NCBI RefSeq assembly: GCF_018811945.1
Contig: NZ_JACRVU010000005.1
Location: 1-64,000, forward strand
DNA length: 64,000 nucleotides
DNA from: Gluconobacter sp. P1C6_b
Lineage (GTDB): Bacteria; Pseudomonadota; Alphaproteobacteria; Acetobacterales; Acetobacteraceae
Direction of reading: 5' to 3'
In this document: in pieces, positions 11,985 through 21,096 of the stretch
Numbering within the stretch: position 1 is the first letter of the stretch
Layout of the letters: every line of letters starts with the position of its first letter
The notes under the pieces: model-generated
What the model was told of the DNA's origin: nothing
Seen by the model: only the letters and a program-made list of their open reading frames with translations
Database searches by the model: none
Position numbers and translations under genes: made by a program

Positions 11985-12911
11985 TCAATAGCCGCGTCCG
12001 GTATCAATCACGCCGCTCATGGGTTCACCGGCTTCATAGCGCCGCAGATTGGCAAGAACGGCCTCGGCTGCAGTGTCAGACTGGGCAGCGCTGGCGATAT
12101 GCGGGGTCAGGAAAATGCGCGGATGATCCCAGAACGGATGTTCCGGCGGCAGCGGTTCGGGTGTGGCGACGTCGAGGACAGCCTGTGAAAGCTGGCCGCT
12201 GTCGAGGGCGGGAATCAGATCATCCTGCACGAGATGGCCACCGCGACCACAGTTGATGAGGCAGGCACCTCTGGGCAGTTTTTCAAACAGGCTGCGATTG
12301 AGAATGCCGCGCGTGGCGTCCGTCAGGGGGACGAGACAGACGAGAATGTCGGTTTCCGCGAGGAAATCGTCCAGCTCCCCTGCCCCGGCAAAGGACTTTA
12401 CGCCCGGAACCTCGCGGCGACTGCGGCTCCAGCCCCGGCATTCATAGCCAAAGGAGACGAGCTTCTCCAGAACCGGACTCCCTAGCTCTCCCATCCCCAT
12501 GAGGCCGACGCGATAGAGTTTCGCCGGACGGTTATGCGAGCCATCCCAGACATGCTCGCGCTGCTGGCGGGCATAGCGGAACATGTCACGGTGAAAAGAC
12601 AGCACCGCCCACAGGACATATTCGACCATACCCTCCACCAGACTGCTCTCCACCATACGGATGATCTGCACGCCCGGCGGCACATTGGCGAGATTGAGCT
12701 GGTCGATCCCCGCGCCCAGCGAAAACAGGACCTCAAGATTGGGAAAAAGCGTGGCGAGATCGTCCGGCGTCTTCCAGGCCGCGAGATAGCGCACATTCTC
12801 TTTCGGACCGGTTTCCGGCCAGATATGGAGCGGGATATCGGGACGAGCCTTCGCGAACTTCTCGCTCCAGACCTTCGCGCGTTCGGGCGTGTGATGGAAG
12901 ACGATCGACAT
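11985..12911 (-). CDS. ghrA: Glyoxylate/hydroxypyruvate reductase A-type 2-hydroxyacid dehydrogenase
   Basis: A 308-residue D-2-hydroxyacid dehydrogenase resembling GhrA, which reduces glyoxylate to glycolate and hydroxypyruvate to glycerate with NADPH. It has a Rossmann site (VGLMGMGELGSPVLEKL). The catalytic set is Arg in LINCGRGGHLVQ, Glu in ATPEPLPPEHPF and His in LTPHIASAA. The neighbouring cluster makes or consumes glyoxylate through an aminotransferase, so a role in glyoxylate disposal is plausible but inferred; ketogluconate reduction, common in acetic acid bacteria, is an alternative. It appears monocistronic. Confidence 0.85.
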   Translation of the reverse strand: MSIVFHHTPERAKVWSEKFAKARPDIPLHIWPETGPKENVRYLAAWKTPDDLATLFPNLEVLFSLGAGIDQLNLANVPPGVQIIRMVESSLVEGMVEYVLWAVLSFHRDMFRYARQQREHVWDGSHNRPAKLYRVGLMGMGELGSPVLEKLVSFGYECRGWSRSRREVPGVKSFAGAGELDDFLAETDILVCLVPLTDATRGILNRSLFEKLPRGACLINCGRGGHLVQDDLIPALDSGQLSQAVLDVATPEPLPPEHPFWDHPRIFLTPHIASAAQSDTAAEAVLANLRRYEAGEPMSGVIDTGRGY

Positions 12912-13276: not shown

Positions 13277-14509
13277 TCAGGCTGCGTCCCAGGCAGCGCG
13301 GGCGGCATCCACGCCTGCGCCGCGGTTGAGTGTTACGCCTTCGCTGGCCAGCACGGAGTCGAGAGCGGCGAGCGTCAGCAGGACCTTGTCCTTGCGGGCA
13401 TTGACGCCCATTGCGCCGATGCGCCAGATCTTGCCGGTCAGCGGACCGAAGGATGAGACGATCTCGATCCCGAAATCGTCTCGCATGAGCTGTCGGATGC
13501 GGGCATTGTCCACACCTTCCGGAACCCAGACGCCCGTGACATTGTTCATGCGGGTTGTGTCGTCGCCATAAACCTTCAGGCCCATGGCGCGCAGGCCGGC
13601 GACCATGGCGCGCCCTGCCCTCACATGACGGGCAACACGGGCTTCCACACCCTCTTCCACGACCAGACGCGCCGTTTCACGAGCAGCGTAGAGCATGGAC
13701 GTGGCTTCGGTATGATGGTTCATCCGCGCCGGAGACCAGTAATTCATCAGCATCGCCAGATCGAAATAGTTCGACTGAATGACCGGGCCATCGCCCTGCT
13801 GCTGGCCGGTGGCGATCCCGGCTTCGTCATGGCGGCGCTTGAGAATCGCGGCAACGGCACGGTCTGACAGCGTAATGGGCGCGGAGCCCGGAGGACCATT
13901 CAGACATTTCTGAAGACCGGCCGTGGCGACGTCTATGTTCCAGGCATCGGTCTCGAACGTCATGCCGCCGAGCGTGGCTGTGGCATCTACATAGAACAGC
14001 ACGTCATGTTTGCGGCAGATGCGACCGATCTCTTCCAGAGGCTGGGCCGTGGTGGTGGAGGTATCGCCATGAACACAGGCGACCAGACCGGGCTGGTGCT
14101 CGATAATGGCAGCTTCGATAAGCGCCGGATCGACGACCTGCCCCCAGTCCACATCCACCGTGCAGGGGATACCGCCGCAGCGATGGACGATTTCCGTCAG
14201 CAGCAGGCCAAAGCGGCCAAAGCGCGGAATGACGACCTTCATGCCCGGCGAGACCAGTGACACCAGCGCGGCTTCAATGGCCGAACGGGCAGAACCGTTC
14301 ACCAGCAGCGTCCAGTGGTTCTTCGTGCGGAAGACCTCGCGATACAGGGCCATGACCTCATCCATATAGGCGGTCATTTCCGGGTCCATCTGTCCGATCA
14401 CGTCATAGGACATGGCGCGGAGGATGCGCGGGTGGACGTTGGTCGGCCCCGCCCCCATCAGCAGACGGGACGGCGGATCGAGCTGGGCAAAAGTTGCGGG
14501 ATGGGTCAT
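13277..14509 (-). CDS. Class V aminotransferase, (S)-ureidoglycine-glyoxylate type
   Basis: A 410-residue PLP enzyme of the alanine/serine-glyoxylate aminotransferase family (PucG/HpxJ branch). The PLP lysine is Lys201 in the GLQKCLNGPPGS segment, preceded by the YVDATATLGG phosphate/Asp region. PucG/HpxJ transfers the amino group of (S)-ureidoglycine to glyoxylate, giving oxalurate and glycine. Its ATG overlaps the stop of the upstream M20 hydrolase (ATGA), whose expected product is ureidoglycine; this neighbour is the main reason for preferring the ureide role over a photorespiratory-type serine aminotransferase. Confidence 0.8.
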   Translation of the reverse strand: MTHPATFAQLDPPSRLLMGAGPTNVHPRILRAMSYDVIGQMDPEMTAYMDEVMALYREVFRTKNHWTLLVNGSARSAIEAALVSLVSPGMKVVIPRFGRFGLLLTEIVHRCGGIPCTVDVDWGQVVDPALIEAAIIEHQPGLVACVHGDTSTTTAQPLEEIGRICRKHDVLFYVDATATLGGMTFETDAWNIDVATAGLQKCLNGPPGSAPITLSDRAVAAILKRRHDEAGIATGQQQGDGPVIQSNYFDLAMLMNYWSPARMNHHTEATSMLYAARETARLVVEEGVEARVARHVRAGRAMVAGLRAMGLKVYGDDTTRMNNVTGVWVPEGVDNARIRQLMRDDFGIEIVSSFGPLTGKIWRIGAMGVNARKDKVLLTLAALDSVLASEGVTLNRGAGVDAARAAWDAA

Positions 14510-15741
14510 GACTGGAACTCCTTGACGAAGGCAAGCAGCGCGCGGTGGGCGAGATCGACATCTCCCACGCGGACGGTTTCATCGGGATGATGGCTCAGGC
14601 CGCCGGGACTGCGAATGAACAGCATCCCCATCGGGCACAGATCGACCATGGCCATGGCGTCGTGACCGGCGCCGCTTAGAAGGCGCTGGGCCGGGCGACC
14701 GGTGACGCTCGTGACGGCCCGCGCCAGACCTTCCACCAGTTCAGGTGCGCAGGCGGCGGCAGGCAGATGCTGGGGCGGGTCGAACGAGATCCCCAGACCG
14801 CGCCGGGCCGCAATGGCCTGCAAATCGGTGCGGATCGCTTCGGCCATGGTATCGCGGGCTTCGTTGGTTTCGGCCCGCATATCCAGTGAGAAACGGACTT
14901 CGCCAGGGATGACGTTTGACGTGTTTGGCGCAACGTCGATCTGACCAACGGTAGCGACCTGCGTGGCGCCGCCTGAGGCACCATTCCGTTCGACAGCCAG
15001 GATCATTTCGGCCGCTGCCGCCAAGGCGTCCTGACGCATGCTCATGGGAGTCGTGCCAGCATGGTCGGACTGGCCGCTGATGGTGACGCGCTGACGGGTC
15101 TGGGCAGCGATGGCGGTGACGACGCCGATCTCGCCATCCATGCTTTCGATGGCGGGCCCCTGCTCGATATGGGGTTCAATATAGGCGATCAGCTCATCCG
15201 GGCGGCGGGCGGCATCTGTCAGACAGGCAGGATCGAGACCGTAACGGATCATGGCGTCGGCCATGGTCACACCCGACGCATCCGTCATATTTTCAGGAAT
15301 GGACTCGATCAGCCCGGCCATGGCACGGGAGCAGATCATGGGTGCCGCAAAACGCGAGCCTTCCTCATCCCCGAAGCCCATGACTTCGATGGCGAATGGC
15401 AGGCGCGTGCCTTCTTCATGCAGGGCCGAAACAAGCTCGATTCCCAGCATGACGCCCAGATTCCCGTCGAAGGCACCCCCATTGCGGACAGTATCGAGAT
15501 GGGAGCCGATCATCAGCGCCGGAGCGCCGGGCATCAGGCCCTCATAGCGTCCAATCAGGCTCCCGGCCGCGTCCAGACGGGTGGTCAGACCGGCTTCTTC
15601 CATCCACTGCGCGACCTGTGCGAGGGTCCGCTGATAGGCGGGGCCGAGCCAGAAACGGAACAGACTGCCCGGTGTCTCGCTGAACGGGACATCCGCGAGA
15701 ATACGGCACCGCTCGACGGCGCGGGCTCCGTGGGCTGTCAT
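14506..15741 (-). CDS. M20-family amidohydrolase, allantoate amidohydrolase-like
   Basis: A 411-residue binuclear-metal hydrolase of the hydantoinase/carbamoylase branch of peptidase M20 (AllC, PucF, HpxK). Metal ligands appear in MIGSHLDTVRNGGAFDGNLG and GFGDEEGSRF, and a dimerisation region carries SDHAGTTPMSMRQDAL. The expected reaction is allantoate to (S)-ureidoglycine with release of ammonia and CO2. I used the ATG at 15741, which has AGGAG at ideal spacing; the ATG at 15789 is longer and lacks one. It is the first gene of a two-gene minus-strand operon, divergent from the LysR gene. An N-carbamoyl-amino-acid hydrolase is the main alternative. Confidence 0.8.
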   Translation of the reverse strand: MTAHGARAVERCRILADVPFSETPGSLFRFWLGPAYQRTLAQVAQWMEEAGLTTRLDAAGSLIGRYEGLMPGAPALMIGSHLDTVRNGGAFDGNLGVMLGIELVSALHEEGTRLPFAIEVMGFGDEEGSRFAAPMICSRAMAGLIESIPENMTDASGVTMADAMIRYGLDPACLTDAARRPDELIAYIEPHIEQGPAIESMDGEIGVVTAIAAQTRQRVTISGQSDHAGTTPMSMRQDALAAAAEMILAVERNGASGGATQVATVGQIDVAPNTSNVIPGEVRFSLDMRAETNEARDTMAEAIRTDLQAIAARRGLGISFDPPQHLPAAACAPELVEGLARAVTSVTGRPAQRLLSGAGHDAMAMVDLCPMGMLFIRSPGGLSHHPDETVRVGDVDLAHRALLAFVKEFQS

Positions 15742-15814
15742 GGGGGCTCCTGTCCGGGAGGTGTCAAGGAAGGGAAACTTTGCGCTCATAACGGAAGCAG
15801 ATCAAGTTGACCTG

Positions 15815-15840
15815 CCAATAAATATGGTACCACATATTGG
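15815..15840. promoter_or_regulatory. Candidate operator in the divergent ureide promoter region
   Basis: Two overlapping dyads lie in the 100-base gap between the M20 hydrolase and LysR genes. CCAATA and TATTGG flank 14 bases (15815-15840), and inside it ATATGGTACCACAT (15822-15835) is palindromic except for one pair. The AT-rich arms suit a LysR-type T-N11-A box; the TGGTACCA core also recalls GntR/FadR-family sites. A -35-like TTGACC (15807-15812) is adjacent. The function is inferred. Confidence 0.5.
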
Positions 15841-15841
15841 C

Positions 15842-16726
15842 ATGAAAGATCAGATGCATCTCGATCCGTTCCATCTGCAATCCTTTCTCGCCGTCGCGGA
15901 GACGCTGCATTTCACATCCGCCGCGCAGAGCCAGGGGGTGAGCCAGTCCACCATCAGCCAGCATGTCAGCCGGCTGGAGGAGCAGCTTGGCACGCGCCTT
16001 CTGGCCCGCAGCACCAAGAGCGTCCGGCTGACGGAAGATGGCATGGCGCTGATCGGTCTGGCCCGGCAGCTTCTTCAGTGCGAGGACAGTATTCTCTCCC
16101 GTTTCCGTCAGGAAACACCCCGCGGAACGATCCGGCTGGGTGTGACGGAAGACCTGCTTCTGACGCGGTTCCCTGAAATTCTCGGAACATTCCGCGCCTC
16201 CCATCCGTCGCTTCAGATCACCATGACGGTCGGTCTGTCAGCATATCTGGCCCGGCTGCTGGATCAGGGGGAGCTGGACGTCTGGTGCGGGATGCGGCGC
16301 ACGACGGAGACTCGCGGACAGAAACTCTGGACCGAGGACATGCGCTGGTACGCGCCCGCGGGAACAAAATTTCCGGCGGAGCAGTCCATTCCGCTCGTGA
16401 CATTCCCCGATGGCAGCGTCACCCGACGCCTGGCGATCGAGACGCTCAACAAAGCCGGGCGGGCGTGGCATCTGGCCTTTACCAGCGGCAGTCTCGGTGC
16501 GCTTCTGGCGGCTGTGCGCGCCGGATATGGTGTGACCCCGCAACCGGCGTTCCTGCGCAATGCGGAACATCTGCCTCATTGTGCCCCGGGATTGCTGCCG
16601 GAAATGCCGCAGGTGGAGTTCATCGCCTCAACCCGTCATCAGACCGCGCAGGGCCCGGAAGAACTGCTGATCCGTACGCTCTGCGCCCATATCCCCCGCC
16701 TGCAACCCGATCTCCTGCCCCTGTAA
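15842..16726 (+). CDS. LysR-family transcriptional regulator of the ureide cluster
   Basis: A LysR-type regulator of 294 residues. The N-terminal winged helix-turn-helix spans about residues 8-65 (LQSFLAVAETLHFTSAAQ, STISQHVSRLEEQLG); the periplasmic-binding-like sensor domain begins near residue 90 (RGTIRLGVTEDLLL). The start is taken at 15842; the ATG four codons later is equally possible and neither has a strong ribosome site. It is divergent from the M20/aminotransferase pair and 13 bases ahead of the HpxW-like gene, so it probably controls both arms. The inducer is unknown; a ureide or oxamate is a reasonable guess. Confidence 0.88.
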   Translation: MKDQMHLDPFHLQSFLAVAETLHFTSAAQSQGVSQSTISQHVSRLEEQLGTRLLARSTKSVRLTEDGMALIGLARQLLQCEDSILSRFRQETPRGTIRLGVTEDLLLTRFPEILGTFRASHPSLQITMTVGLSAYLARLLDQGELDVWCGMRRTTETRGQKLWTEDMRWYAPAGTKFPAEQSIPLVTFPDGSVTRRLAIETLNKAGRAWHLAFTSGSLGALLAAVRAGYGVTPQPAFLRNAEHLPHCAPGLLPEMPQVEFIASTRHQTAQGPEELLIRTLCAHIPRLQPDLLPL

Positions 16727-16739
16727 GGATGCCCCCGTC

Positions 16740-18332
16740 ATGCTGACTCCCAATGCCTTAGGCGGAATGGTTACGTCTCCGCATCATCTCGCCAGTCAGG
16801 CAGGGCTGGATGTTCTGCGTGAGGGGGGAACGGCGATTGAGGCGGTCGTGGCTACAGCCTCTACGCTGGCAGTGGTTTATCCGCACATGACGGGGCTGGG
16901 CGGCGATGCGTTCTGGCTGATCTGCTACCCCGATGGCCGGACCGTGGCCATCGACGCCTGCGGAGCACTGGCCATGGGAGCGGAACACGCGTTCTATGCC
17001 GAGGCCGGACACACCACCATCCCCTGGCGCGGCGGTCTGGCGGCCAACACGGTGGCAGGAACGGTTTCGGGCTGGGAAACGGCACTGGAACTGAGCAGCG
17101 GGATCCGTGATCCCCTGCCACTAGACCGGCTGCTGCGCGACGCCATCCATTATGCGGAAAACGGGCGTGTAGTCTCCGAAAGCGAAGGAGCACTTCTGGC
17201 GCAAAAACAGCCGGAGCTGATGTCGGATCCGACGCTGGCGCGGATCTGTTTTCCCGACGGCAAGCCTTGGACAGCGGGCAGTATCCGCAAATCGCCCGAA
17301 CTGGCCCAGACGCTGAGGATGCTGAACCGGGACGGGTTGCGGAGTTTTTATAACGGGCCGCTGGCGCGCAGTCTGGCCGCCGATCTTGCCGCGGCAGGCA
17401 GTCCGGTCCGGTCTCTGGATCTTCTGGCGCATCGGGCTGAGGTCAAGGAACCGCTGCACGTCCAGACGAGCGATGGCTTTCTTTACAACACCGCCCCTCC
17501 CACACAGGGTGTGGCCTCGCTTCTGATTCTGGCTCTGTCGGATCATCTCAGTCGTGCGGACGGGCCGGAAAGCTTTGCGCATGTGCATGGTCTGGTTGAA
17601 GCGACCAAGCAGGCATTCCTCTACCGCAACCGCCATACGGATGGCAGCGAACACTCCGAGGCACTGGCCCGGGAACTGCTGGCCGATCCGGCACGACTGG
17701 AAGCGATGGCGTCCCGCATTTCCATGACCCACGCCCTGCCCTGGACCGAGAAAACGCAATGGGGCGACACGACGTGGATGGGTGCGATCGACCGTGAAGG
17801 CGTTGCAGTCAGCATGATCCAGAGCCTGTATTTCGAATTCGGCTCCGGCGTAATGCTGCCGCAGAGCGGGCTGTTCTGGCAGAACCGCGGATCATCCTTC
17901 CGGCTGGCTCATTCGGGCTGGAACATCCTGCGCCCCGGCGCCAAACCGTTCCATACGCTCAACCCCGCTGCGGCCCGGCTGCGGGACGGGCGCACGATGG
18001 TCTATGGCACCATGGGCGGCGAAGGCCAGCCCCAGACACAAGCCGCGATCTTCAGCCGGCATGTCCGCTATGGCGTGCCGCTTCAGGAAGCCATCTGTCG
18101 TCCACGCTGGCTGCTCGGGCGGACCTGGGGAGACGAAAGCCTGTCGTTCAAGGTGGAACCGGGATTCAGTCCGGGCGTCATGTCGCAGCTTGAGTCAGCC
18201 GGGCATACCGTCGAGGCACTGTCTGAGCAGTCCATCATCATGGGTCATGCAGGCGCGCTGATCCGCCACGAAAACGGACGGCTTGAGGGTGCCACCGATC
18301 CTCGCAGTGACGGAGCCGTTGCCGCGTGGTGA
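16740..18332 (+). CDS. Gamma-glutamyltranspeptidase-fold hydrolase, HpxW-like (oxamate amidohydrolase candidate)
   Basis: A 530-residue Ntn-hydrolase of the gamma-glutamyltransferase family. The self-cleavage/nucleophile Thr is expected at residue 344 in QWGDTTWMGAIDREGV, matching the family's TT motif, and GTMGGEGQPQTQAAI is the conserved C-terminal glycine motif. There is no signal peptide, unlike periplasmic GGT, which agrees with Klebsiella HpxW, a cytoplasmic oxamate amidohydrolase giving oxalate and ammonia. Context with an AtzE/AtzG-like pair and ureide genes supports that assignment. Its end overlaps the following symporter gene by seven bases. Substrate is inferred; another gamma-glutamyl or amide substrate remains possible. 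Confidence 0.75.
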   Translation: MLTPNALGGMVTSPHHLASQAGLDVLREGGTAIEAVVATASTLAVVYPHMTGLGGDAFWLICYPDGRTVAIDACGALAMGAEHAFYAEAGHTTIPWRGGLAANTVAGTVSGWETALELSSGIRDPLPLDRLLRDAIHYAENGRVVSESEGALLAQKQPELMSDPTLARICFPDGKPWTAGSIRKSPELAQTLRMLNRDGLRSFYNGPLARSLAADLAAAGSPVRSLDLLAHRAEVKEPLHVQTSDGFLYNTAPPTQGVASLLILALSDHLSRADGPESFAHVHGLVEATKQAFLYRNRHTDGSEHSEALARELLADPARLEAMASRISMTHALPWTEKTQWGDTTWMGAIDREGVAVSMIQSLYFEFGSGVMLPQSGLFWQNRGSSFRLAHSGWNILRPGAKPFHTLNPAAARLRDGRTMVYGTMGGEGQPQTQAAIFSRHVRYGVPLQEAICRPRWLLGRTWGDESLSFKVEPGFSPGVMSQLESAGHTVEALSEQSIIMGHAGALIRHENGRLEGATDPRSDGAVAAW

Positions 18333-19585
18333 GAGCTCTGGCCGGAAACCTGTTCGCGCAGGTTGTACTGGCGACGGTGCTCGGCCTTGGAGCCGGGCTG
18401 TTCTTCCCGGCTCTCGCGGATGATGTGGGATGGATGACGGCGCTGTTCATGCGCCTCATCATCATGGCGGTCGGGCCGCTGCTGTTCTGTATCGTAACGC
18501 TCGGGATCCTCGGCGCCGGATCGCTGAAAACGGTCGGGCGACTGGGGGGACAGGCCCTGCTCTATTTCGAGATCATGACGACGCTCGCGCTTGGCGTGGC
18601 GGTTCTGGTGGCGATGGGGCTCGGGATCGGTCAAGGCGTCGGATTTGTACCGACGGCAGAGGACGCCCGGATGATCGCCTCCTATGGCGACCATGCACAG
18701 AACCTGCGGGCCGGGGGCATCAGCGGATTCCTCCTCTCCCTCATCCCCCGGACACCGGCAGAGGCCTTCACACAGGGGAATGTGCTTCAAATCCTGGTTT
18801 TCGCGATTTTTGCGGGGTGCTGCCTGAGCGGCATGGGGGAGCGCGGCGCACCTCTGGTCCGGCTGATCGAAAGTGTCTCCGAACTGTTTTCGCGCATGAT
18901 GGGCGTCATCATCCGCGTGGCCCCTCTGGGCGTGTTCGGCGCGATGGTGACGACAACGGCGCGCTATGGGCTGGAGACCATCGGGCATCTGGCCGGCTTC
19001 ACAGCGCTGTATTTCCTGCTGGTGGGTCTCTTTATCGTTGGCGCGCTGGGCGGGGGGCTTCGGCTGGCGGGCGTCAGTCCGCTGCGGTTTGCGCGTTATT
19101 TCCGTGAAGAACTCCTGATTGTCGCCACGACCACGGCATCGGACGCGGTTCTGCCCAGTCTGATGACCAAGCTCGAAAAACTCGGTGTGGAACGTCAGGT
19201 CGTGGGGATTGTGGTCCCGGCCGGGTATTCGCTCAATCTGGATGCGCTGTCGATCTATCTGGGGCTGGCGGTCATCTTTCTGGCCAATGCCACCGACACG
19301 CATCTGACACTCTGGCAGATCGCAACACTACTGGTGACAGCGCTGATCACGTCCAAGGGCGCACACGGCATTCCAGGTTTTGCTATCGTCATTCTGGCGG
19401 CAACGCTGGCGAGCGTGCCCTCCATTCCACCCGCAAGTCTGGTGATGCTTCTGGCCGTGGATTGGTTTGCGGGAATCGCACGGGCCGTGGGCAATTTCGC
19501 AGGAAACTGCGTCGCCCCGGTTCTGATCGCCGCATGGGAAAGGCGCCTCGACCACACGAAAATGGCCGAGGCGCTGGATCGCTAA
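18326..19585 (+). CDS. Dicarboxylate/amino acid:cation symporter (DAACS family)
   Basis: A 419-residue GltP/DctA-type secondary transporter with about eight transmembrane helices and two hairpin loops. The family's serine-rich hairpin is replaced by TTTASDAVLPSLMTKLEKLGV (19130 region), and the GYSLNLDALSIYLGLAVIFLANATD substrate/cation-binding helix is intact. The start is GTG at 18326, overlapping the HpxW-like gene, so the two are translated together. It probably imports the anionic substrate of the cluster (oxamate, oxalurate or a related acid) with protons or sodium; that link is inferred. It ends exactly where the convergent amidase gene ends. Confidence 0.88.
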   Translation: MVRALAGNLFAQVVLATVLGLGAGLFFPALADDVGWMTALFMRLIIMAVGPLLFCIVTLGILGAGSLKTVGRLGGQALLYFEIMTTLALGVAVLVAMGLGIGQGVGFVPTAEDARMIASYGDHAQNLRAGGISGFLLSLIPRTPAEAFTQGNVLQILVFAIFAGCCLSGMGERGAPLVRLIESVSELFSRMMGVIIRVAPLGVFGAMVTTTARYGLETIGHLAGFTALYFLLVGLFIVGALGGGLRLAGVSPLRFARYFREELLIVATTTASDAVLPSLMTKLEKLGVERQVVGIVVPAGYSLNLDALSIYLGLAVIFLANATDTHLTLWQIATLLVTALITSKGAHGIPGFAIVILAATLASVPSIPPASLVMLLAVDWFAGIARAVGNFAGNCVAPVLIAAWERRLDHTKMAEALDR

Positions 19586-20920
19586 TCAGATCAGACGGGC
19601 TTCTACCAGCCCGTCCGTTTCCAGCTTTTCCGCCAAGGCAAAAAGCTGGTCCTCACGCCCCGGACGCGCGATCAGCTGGGCACCGAGCGGCAGACCCGCA
19701 ACCTTCATCGGGACCGTCAGAACCGGGAAACCCGCAAGCGTCAGGGGTTGCGTGTAAAGCCCCAGATTGGCACGGGCAGAGACCATCTTGCCGCCGATTT
19801 CGATTTCCGGCTGATCGAAACGTGGCGCCTCGCCGACAAGAGCTGGAGCGAGCAGGATCTCCGTCTTCGCAAAAGCCTCGTGCATGCGATCACGGAACCA
19901 GTGACGCAGACGATGGGCCTGAAAGATCAGCGTGGACGGCAGAAGAGCCCCGGCCAGAAGCCGATCCCGGACAGCGGGATCATAGTCTGCAGCCTGGGTG
20001 CGCAGACGTCCGAGATGCTGCCCCGCCCCTTCGGAGGCGCTGATGACGAAAGCCGCAGCCCGCGCCCGCGCCACTTCCGGGAGTTCGACGACATCCGTGG
20101 CTCCCAGCGCCATGGAGAGCGTATCGATCGCGGTCTGCATCGGCGCAGACATGTTCTCTCCGAACCATCCGCCCAGACGGGCAATGCGCAGACTGCCCAC
20201 ATCCACGTCCGCCAGAGATCTGGCGCAGAGGGCTTCAAAACAGGCTTTCAGGCCGCCTGCACTATCGGCAAACGGACCAACCGTATCGAGGCTCGGCACG
20301 AACGGATAACTGCCTTCAACGGACAGACGCCCCTGTGTCGCCCGCAGACCCCAGATCCCACAGAGCGATGCCGGAACGCGGATGGAGCCGTTCGTATCGG
20401 ACCCAAGACCGATAGAGAACATGCGCGCCGCCACACCCGCTGCCGAACCACCTGACGACCCGCCGGCCAGACGCTCGGGAGCATGCGGATTGCGGGTATT
20501 ACCGTAATGGGCGTTGATCGTGGCGAACCCGTAGGCAAACTCGTCCATGTTCGTCAGCGCAATGGGGATGGCCCCGGCCGCGATCATGTGAGCAACAAGC
20601 GTTGCATCCTGCGTGGCTGGCGGGTCATTGGCGAGAACCTTCGACCCGGCCGTCGTAATTTCCCCACGGACATCGAACAGATCCTTGATGCCAAAGGGCA
20701 CTCCGGCGAGCGGCCCCGGATCCTGCCCCTGCAGCACTAGGCGATCAACCCGCTCGGCAGCTTCCAGCGCACGATGCATCAGCAGGCGCGTGACGCAATT
20801 ATAGTCTTTGTCCCGTGCCTCGATATCGGCCAGGGTCTTTACGGTCAGGTCGCGGGCGGAAATCTCGCCTTTGCGCACACTGGCCGCGAGCGCGAGAGTG
20901 CGCTGCTGAAGGCCGCTCAT
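19586..20920 (-). CDS. AtzE/HpxY-like amidase-signature hydrolase
   Basis: A 444-residue amidase-signature enzyme. The Ser-cisSer-Lys triad is visible: Lys in GVPFGIKDLFDV, cis-Ser in LAGGSSGGSAAGVAA, and nucleophilic Ser in GSDTNGSIRVPASLCG. In Pseudomonas ADP, AtzE hydrolyses 1-carboxybiuret and needs the small AtzG; Klebsiella hpxXY encodes a homologous pair. The same layout occurs here: a DUF4089 gene directly upstream whose stop overlaps this ATG (ATGA). Substrate is therefore likely a carboxylated or oxamate-type ureide. GatA is excluded by the lack of gatB/C context and by the partner gene. Confidence 0.82.
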   Translation of the reverse strand: MSGLQQRTLALAASVRKGEISARDLTVKTLADIEARDKDYNCVTRLLMHRALEAAERVDRLVLQGQDPGPLAGVPFGIKDLFDVRGEITTAGSKVLANDPPATQDATLVAHMIAAGAIPIALTNMDEFAYGFATINAHYGNTRNPHAPERLAGGSSGGSAAGVAARMFSIGLGSDTNGSIRVPASLCGIWGLRATQGRLSVEGSYPFVPSLDTVGPFADSAGGLKACFEALCARSLADVDVGSLRIARLGGWFGENMSAPMQTAIDTLSMALGATDVVELPEVARARAAAFVISASEGAGQHLGRLRTQAADYDPAVRDRLLAGALLPSTLIFQAHRLRHWFRDRMHEAFAKTEILLAPALVGEAPRFDQPEIEIGGKMVSARANLGLYTQPLTLAGFPVLTVPMKVAGLPLGAQLIARPGREDQLFALAEKLETDGLVEARLI

Positions 20921-21096
20921 GGTTCATACCGGAAGGCAGGTTCGAGGCGATCTGGCAGATCCAGCCCTTCGATCAGCGCGCCGTAGCTGCGCAAAAGCTC
21001 AAGGTTGCTCCGTACGCCGGCGTGAAATTCGGCAGGAATGGTCAGGCCATTCGCACGGGCGAGCACCGCGATTTCGGTATCATTGGGGTCTGTCAC
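20917..21096 (-). CDS. AtzG/HpxX-like small subunit (DUF4089)
   Basis: A 59-residue helical protein, reading TDPNDTEIAVLARANGLTIP then VRSNLELLRSYGALIEG and a C-terminal PAFRYEP. The last segment matches the 'EPAPVF'-like tail of DUF4089 proteins. AtzG forms a heterotetramer with AtzE and stabilises it, a GatC-like relation. I prefer the GTG at 21096, which has GGAG eight bases upstream, over the GTG at 21105, where GGAG touches the codon. It is translationally coupled to the amidase gene. Confidence 0.75.
   Translation of the reverse strand: MTDPNDTEIAVLARANGLTIPAEFHAGVRSNLELLRSYGALIEGLDLPDRLEPAFRYEP

Follow-up and report, generated by a model that had tools for sequence, protein, structure and literature searches.

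What pathway do seven clustered genes of Gluconobacter sp. P1C6_b encode, from where is it supplied, and how would its oxalurate be opened? The genes lie at positions 13277–21096 of a 64,000-nucleotide stretch of DNA (contig NZ_JACRVU010000005.1; hereafter the window) and form three units: an allantoate amidohydrolase-type gene with an aminotransferase gene (K–J, minus strand), a LysR-type regulator gene with those of an Ntn-hydrolase and a DctA-like carrier (LysR–W–D, plus strand), and the gene of a small GatC-like protein with that of its amidase-signature partner (X–Y, minus strand). The end of Y adjoins the end of D, and genes overlap within units by 4 bases in K–J, 7 in W–D and 4 in X–Y. 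The host belongs to the oxydans group of Gluconobacter: its HpxW (W) shares 98% identity with the protein of Gluconobacter potus and 97% with its counterpart in G. oxydans NBRC 14819. An initial annotation of the window had proposed a route from allantoate through ureidoglycine to oxalurate and on to oxamate-type products. The family matches of J, K, W, X and Y suggest that this route is right, and we estimate at about 0.78 the probability that the cluster is the HPX (oxalurate/oxamate) branch of aerobic purine degradation, fed by urate genes elsewhere in the genome. The assignment draws on the gene identities, conserved catalytic positions, co-occurrence, operator conservation, upstream urate genes and absence of AllG that we observed here, and each single reaction is predicted from relatives of the protein concerned.

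In the proposed pathway, urate would be converted to allantoate by enzymes encoded elsewhere in the genome, K would convert allantoate to ureidoglycine, and J would transfer the amino group of ureidoglycine to glyoxylate, giving oxalurate and glycine. HpxX–HpxY (X–Y), helped by HpxZ from a third locus, would turn oxalurate into oxamate, from which HpxW would form oxalate and ammonia. The DctA-like carrier would serve the end of the pathway (oxalate or oxamate), and the LysR regulator most likely controls the divergent units K–J and LysR–W–D through one conserved operator.

Enzymes of a proposed ureide and oxamate route

Family and structure searches agree on the gene identities, and every gene that the initial annotation named lies where it had been placed. 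The best solved relative of J is ureidoglycine–glyoxylate aminotransferase (3nnk, 493 bits), followed by PucG (3isl, 403 bits) and then, at 260 bits, by an alanine–glyoxylate aminotransferase. K matches the allantoate amidohydrolase model NF006775 at 602 bits (cut-off 479). Y matches the AtzE model NF006631 at 603 bits (cut-off 461). Among solved structures it is closest to 6c62, a biuret hydrolase by its deposited name, which we take to be AtzE; Lys79, Ser155 and Ser179 stand at amidase-signature positions and presumably form the catalytic triad of that family. X matches the AtzG-like Pfam family PF13318 at 29.3 bits (cut-off 24); its matches in the Protein Data Bank were short, to designed repeat proteins only, and are not meaningful.

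For W, the best solved relative is 5hft, matched over two chains at 272 and 263 bits and deposited as gamma-glutamyltranspeptidase (GGT); we take it to be the Klebsiella HpxW oxamate amidohydrolase of Hicks and Ealick. Thr344 of W is aligned with residue 1 of the 5hft small chain. The match begins at residue 8, so W starts almost directly in the catalytic domain and has no room for a signal peptide, as had been noted initially. The HpxW work of Hicks and Ealick (2016) is cited in a passage of PMC5270733.

Urate genes and HpxZ elsewhere in the genome

Having seen no uricase, allantoinase or oxalurate carbamoyltransferase in the cluster, the initial annotation had held that it either begins with an imported ureide or contains a novel step. 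No imported ureide is needed, because the same genome has a run of genes on contig C1 for an FAD oxidoreductase, PuuE allantoinase, OHCU decarboxylase, HIU hydrolase and a xanthine permease, with guanine deaminase encoded nearby; PuuE, the decarboxylase, the hydrolase, the permease and guanine deaminase all pass their NCBIfam cut-offs. The oxidoreductase of the run, an FAD/NAD(P) enzyme (L131, 12199–13716) of a kind that accompanies the urate genes both in Gluconobacter and in further acetic acid bacteria, matched no specific NCBIfam model; it may be HpyO-like or a urate hydroxylase still without assignment.

HpxZ is encoded at a third site, on contig C4, by a gene whose product matches the NCBIfam model 'oxalurate catabolism protein HpxZ' at 160 bits (cut-off 135). 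No hpxZ stands beside hpxXY within the window, and the initial annotation missed the gene because it lies outside. That 7 of the 20 Gluconobacter loci still have it directly upstream of X–Y links this relocated gene with the others. Across 24 genomes, namely the window genome and 23 selected from the loci described below, HpxZ is present in 22 and OHCU decarboxylase and PuuE in 21 each.

AllG, the marker of the carbamoyltransferase AllFGH, was found in none of these 24 genomes, in a search that covered AllG but not AllF or AllH and in which the Escherichia coli control was positive. Passages of a 2025 nitrifier paper (PMC12625717) name hpxY an oxalurate amidohydrolase in the text and an oxamate carbamoyltransferase in one figure legend. 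The absence of AllG from all 24 genomes, together with the former name, makes HpxXY the likely oxalurate step. The lack of a carbamoyltransferase, one of the absences behind the initially suggested import or novel step, is expected: according to a passage of the 2024 AllFGH paper (PMC11326118), Klebsiella pneumoniae is also without genes for OXTCase and its carbamate kinase. As HpxY had moreover already been named for this reaction, we rejected the step as a novelty.

Conservation of the gene set and alternative readings

A scan of genome contigs with HpxW found 96 relatives, the best 80 of which were kept and gave 79 named loci. All 20 Gluconobacter loci among them (L034–L052 and L086) hold J, K, LysR, W, Y and X in the same order. 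D is present in 13; the seven loci that lack it are those of G. aidae, G. thailandicus, G. cerinus, G. frateurii, G. sp. Gdi, G. japonicus and G. wancherniae. The order X–Y–W–K recurs in 17 loci of Komagataeibacter, Novacetimonas and Gluconacetobacter, with J next in 16 (the 17th locus ends first), and in those 16 J is followed by PuuE allantoinase, OHCU decarboxylase and HIU hydrolase.

Among 200 Acetobacteraceae genomes, a close W (at least 500 bits, which left out 57 weaker genomes of 84, including G128 with a 273-bit fragment at a contig end) occurs in 27, a close Y (at least 490 bits, which left out 72 weaker genomes of 98) in 26, and both in 25. Both cuts were set by us; the break in bit scores at the Y cut (494 to 435) is less distinct than at the W cut (501 to 273), and the Fisher value for co-occurrence of W and Y, 2e-28, ignores relatedness and is descriptive only. 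A close J, counted as any match at E 1e-120, is found in 31 genomes, 23 of them with a close W.

The alternative that survives best is a cluster that acts by itself on a ureide or oxamate taken up from outside, with the DctA-like carrier as importer and the urate genes unrelated. It would suit the DctA fold, which is usually that of an importer, and also eight Acetobacter loci (L056, L058–L060, L062, L087, L110 and L111), in which a LysR orthologue, an OprB porin, an OxlT-type antiporter, an SBF-like carrier and hpxW stand in a row. J, K and X were not found in the fetched DNA of these loci, nor were urate genes of our query set, and the row is possibly a stand-alone oxamate-using unit. However, the window genome itself encodes the way from urate to allantoate, PuuE and OHCU decarboxylase recur in 21 of 24 genomes and stand beside X–Y–W–K–J in 16 Komagataeibacter-type loci, and 7 of the 20 Gluconobacter loci lack the carrier while keeping the rest. 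Our estimate for import alone fell once the urate-to-allantoate genes were found in the same genome, and we now regard a stand-alone system as unlikely.

Considerably less probable still is that Y and X are an AtzE/AtzG pair of cyanuric acid, biuret or triuret breakdown, placed beside ureide genes by chance. The best curated models of Y are indeed AtzE models, and 6c62 is presumably AtzE as well, but the window genome encodes two amidase-signature proteins only, GatA and Y. It thus has no AtzF-type allophanate hydrolase, which rules the AtzE-like pair out of a cyanuric acid route ending in that enzyme (cyanuric acid hydrolase was not searched for). Moreover, 25 of the 26 genomes with a close Y have a close W, and Y adjoins hpxW in the 17 Komagataeibacter-type loci. 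That W is an ordinary GGT acting on glutathione is very improbable: it has the GGT fold (PF01019, 382 bits) but falls below the NCBIfam GGT cut-off (TIGR00066, 299.3 against 357.85 bits), matches 5hft, presumably HpxW, far above the GGT 2e0w (156 bits), leaves no room for a signal peptide and has J, K, X and Y as neighbours in each of the 20 Gluconobacter loci.

Several observations weigh against assignment to the HPX branch. The same AtzE models match the Y of the window and that of Klebsiella, and sequence does not separate HpxY from AtzE. At E 0.001 the NCBIfam model NF033624 for HpxX does not match the window X, although it matches the X of Klebsiella at 101 bits (cut-off 70). The urate-oxidising enzyme of this genome is only a candidate, and HpxZ is missing from 2 of the 24 genomes. 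Of the 31 genomes with a close J, 8 have no close W, and of the 27 with a close W, 4 have no close J, so the steps of the pathway are separable. Finally, the operator search described below leaves one LysR regulon for all three loci unsupported.

A possible two-step opening of oxalurate

Oxalurate (H2N-CO-NH-CO-COOH) is 1-carboxybiuret (H2N-CO-NH-CO-NH-COOH), the AtzE substrate, minus one NH. In passages of PMC6219798, AtzE deaminates 1-carboxybiuret to 1,3-dicarboxyurea, which AtzH most likely decarboxylates. Given this resemblance, HpxXY may deaminate oxalurate to N-carboxyoxamate, and HpxZ may decarboxylate N-carboxyoxamate to oxamate as AtzH would do with dicarboxyurea; we infer this division of labour, like the substrate of the carrier discussed below. 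The nine AtzH pocket residues named in those passages (PMC6219798) are all kept in the HpxZ of the window genome (Tyr22, Arg46, Arg63, Arg66, Arg73, Phe94, Arg96, Gln106 and Gln108), as read from an alignment whose numbering we took to be shifted by 22, a value that holds for all nine. Spontaneous decarboxylation of N-carboxyoxamate is also to be expected, which would fit the two genomes without HpxZ. No paper stating the HpxXY–HpxZ scheme was found in the open-licence literature, seen mostly as listings.

A broader picture, in which this transferase-free opening by XY and Z mirrors cyanuric acid breakdown, D does the job of OxlT and AtzEGH was recruited from purine catabolism, is tentative, and we hold it with less than even confidence. 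If true, it would fill the oxalurate-to-oxamate step in bacteria without oxamic transcarbamylase, give the DUF3225/HpxZ family a natural substrate and suggest an origin of the s-triazine enzymes AtzE, AtzG and AtzH. The herbicide-degrading AtzEGH would then be a recruited purine-catabolic set, which would supply a substrate for the proposal, made in a passage of PMC6219798, that atzG–atzE–atzH pre-dates the cyanuric acid operon.

The DctA-like carrier and oxalate antiporters beside hpxW

The initial annotation had given the cluster its own importer, whereas the neighbours of hpxW elsewhere suggest a carrier of oxalate or oxamate. D belongs to the SDF family (329 bits), is 39% identical to E. 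coli DctA and scores below both NCBIfam DctA cut-offs (467.9 of 570 and 421.5 of 513 bits). The SSSES and NLDGT sequences of E. coli DctA, which we take to be binding-site motifs, are replaced by TASDA and NLDAL in the window D and in the 11 of 13 locus copies that were aligned with it, with TASDS in L040 and TSSDA in L046 at the SSSES position.

An oxalate antiporter-type MFS gene adjoins hpxW in 10 of the 79 loci and on one Paraburkholderia plasmid. Three copies were scanned with TIGR04259 (cut-off 335 bits): those of L057 (396 bits) and L135 (392 bits) pass, and that of G. morbifer (263 bits) falls below. A LysR orthologue, 48–53% identical, precedes the MFS gene in 8 of the 10 loci; of the other two, G. 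morbifer has its own LysR, 76% identical, and L057 has none at that level. In G. morbifer (L046, 11559–12899 and upstream), an intact D separates W from an OxlT-like gene whose match is broken into two pieces. This could be decay, and a sequencing error is possible because the Acetobacter assemblies L087, L110 and L111 also show OxlT in pieces, together with truncated W matches. D itself is not OxlT, an MFS protein: it has the SDF fold, and the window genome has no TIGR04259 match over the cut-off. That model exceeds its cut-off in 4 of the 24 genomes and in none of 14 control genomes.

D occupies the place beside hpxW that an oxalate antiporter has in Acetobacter and in a Paraburkholderia, and we therefore conclude with modest confidence that D carries oxalate or oxamate rather than importing ureides. 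The 7 Gluconobacter loci without D and the usual importing role of its fold count against this. If the proposed pathway is true, acetic acid bacteria are predicted to release oxalate when purines are the nitrogen source. Of the 24 genomes, 1 has oxalyl-CoA decarboxylase over its cut-off and 4 have bicupin oxalate decarboxylase over theirs. The window genome has neither, and we therefore rejected oxalate degradation by these two enzymes there (formyl-CoA transferase and oxalate oxidase were not searched for).

A probable conserved operator between K and LysR

The 100 bases that separate K and LysR contain a 15-base block (CAGATCAAGTTGACC; Table 1) that is invariant in 15 of 15 columns and 21 of 21 sequences, while the noncoding identity of 5 oxydans-group sequences to 7 others is 0.66. 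Built on a palindrome, the block is a probable LysR operator. In the genome, the 14-base core of the block occurs once in exact form and, with up to two mismatches, gives 21 matches (the exact one included) against 12 for a backward control. When up to three mismatches are allowed, neither the region upstream of X nor the urate operon contains the 15-base operator. The HpxZ locus has a single match (L132, position 9033; three mismatches), which lies away from HpxZ and is no more than chance would give. Nor was it found before the eight Acetobacter LysR orthologues, where the best matches have 5–6 mismatches, at chance level. As the operator is missing from all of these places, the regulon seems to comprise K–J and LysR–W–D only.

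Relation to known systems

The pathway is known in kind; what is new is the Gluconobacter version, with another transporter, another regulator and a moved hpxZ. On the Klebsiella pneumoniae plasmid NZ_CP079635.1 (L133, 8393–18533), one strand holds K and J together with four ABC transporter genes and the gene of an RpiR-type regulator, and the other holds W, X, Y and Z. The same chemistry is expected there from W, X, Y, J and K, which stand in two divergent blocks on about 10 kb. The Klebsiella set had been described as spread differently; it is not scattered, since K–J–ABC–RpiR adjoins W–X–Y–Z. The accompanying remark that it uses other transport and regulation holds for the nearest genes: the ABC genes and RpiR-type regulator lie between the blocks in Klebsiella, whereas Gluconobacter has the DctA-like carrier and LysR. 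Neither an ABC transporter nor an RpiR-type regulator is a defining feature of HPX chemistry. The Klebsiella record has hpxZ after hpxY, unlike Gluconobacter with hpxZ at another locus, and carries a LysR gene about 1.2 kb beyond K; its X and Z score over the cut-offs of the HpxX and HpxZ models, and its W is near-identical to 5hft.

Section 14 of Esquirol et al. (2018; PMC6219798) describes ggt–atzG–atzE–atzH clusters in eight Enterobacteriaceae genera, with a LysR-family regulator, and leaves their substrate open. As described there, these clusters share with the window a LysR-family regulator, a transporter, a transaminase and allantoate amidohydrolase, and differ in having an ABC transporter, atzH inside the cluster and another strand arrangement. 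The X–Y–W–K–J–puuE–OHCU–HIUase cluster of Komagataeibacter and Novacetimonas (for example L070 and L076) is orthologous, at 50–64% identity over J, K, W and Y, but forms one co-directional block that includes the urate genes, and LysR and the DctA-like carrier were unmatched in it at the thresholds used.

The atzDGEHF cyanuric acid operon of Pseudomonas sp. ADP has the AtzE–AtzG pair in common with the window, as well as an AtzH whose nine pocket residues recur in the genome's AtzH-like protein; in contrast, the window genome has no allophanate hydrolase and the window context is one of ureide genes. With the E. coli ALL pathway (allABCD, allFGHK), the cluster has in common allantoate deamination and an oxalurate/oxamate branch. 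E. coli has the carbamoyltransferase AllFGH, whereas AllG is absent from the window genome, where oxalurate is expected from transamination and not from AllD.

Gene boundaries and neighbouring genes

Table 1 Features of the proposed HPX locus, in window positions
Feature	Position	Strand	Basis or remark
hpxJ/pucG, (S)-ureidoglycine–glyoxylate aminotransferase (J)	13277–14509	-	Structure matches; 4-base overlap with K
hpxK-type allantoate amidohydrolase, M20 (K)	14506–15741	-	Family matches; start corrected from 15789
Probable LysR operator CAGATCAAGTTGACC, core TCAA-G-TTGA	15798–15812		Between divergent K and LysR; invariant block
LysR-type regulator	15842–16726	+	Family matches; divergent from K–J, upstream of W–D
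hpxW, oxamate amidohydrolase-type Ntn-hydrolase, nucleophile position Thr344 (W)	16740–18332	+	5hft alignment
DctA-like SDF/DAACS carrier (D)	18326–19585	+	Family matches; start overlaps end of W
hpxY/atzE amidase-signature hydrolase, candidate oxalurate amidohydrolase (Y)	19586–20920	-	Lys79, Ser155, Ser179
hpxX/atzG, small GatC-like partner of Y (X)	20917–21096	-	PF13318; start corrected to 21096

A GhrA-like glyoxylate/hydroxypyruvate reductase gene lies just downstream of J, at 11985–12911, and is of interest since J consumes glyoxylate. We left it out of the cluster: no locus outside Gluconobacter among those searched matches it at E 1e-30, and it is found in 13 of the 20 Gluconobacter loci, adjoining J in 12 and apart in 1. 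On an Azospirillum plasmid (L134, 9992–20533), in a fetched stretch where J, K and X were unmatched, the genes that come after an hpxW homologue are those of a branched-chain-type ABC transporter and of subunits resembling xanthine dehydrogenase.

For K, 15741 is the most likely start: of 21 aligned sequences, 14 have the upstream ATG (15789 in the window) in a frame other than that of K. The start of LysR is 15842 or 15854; the longest open reading frame of this gene overlaps K. X most likely starts at 21096, in agreement with the end of the initially annotated region and a position that in 13 oxydans-group relatives holds ATG in 9, GTG, as in the window, in 2 and ACG in 2; the two relatives with ACG have an ATG one codon upstream.

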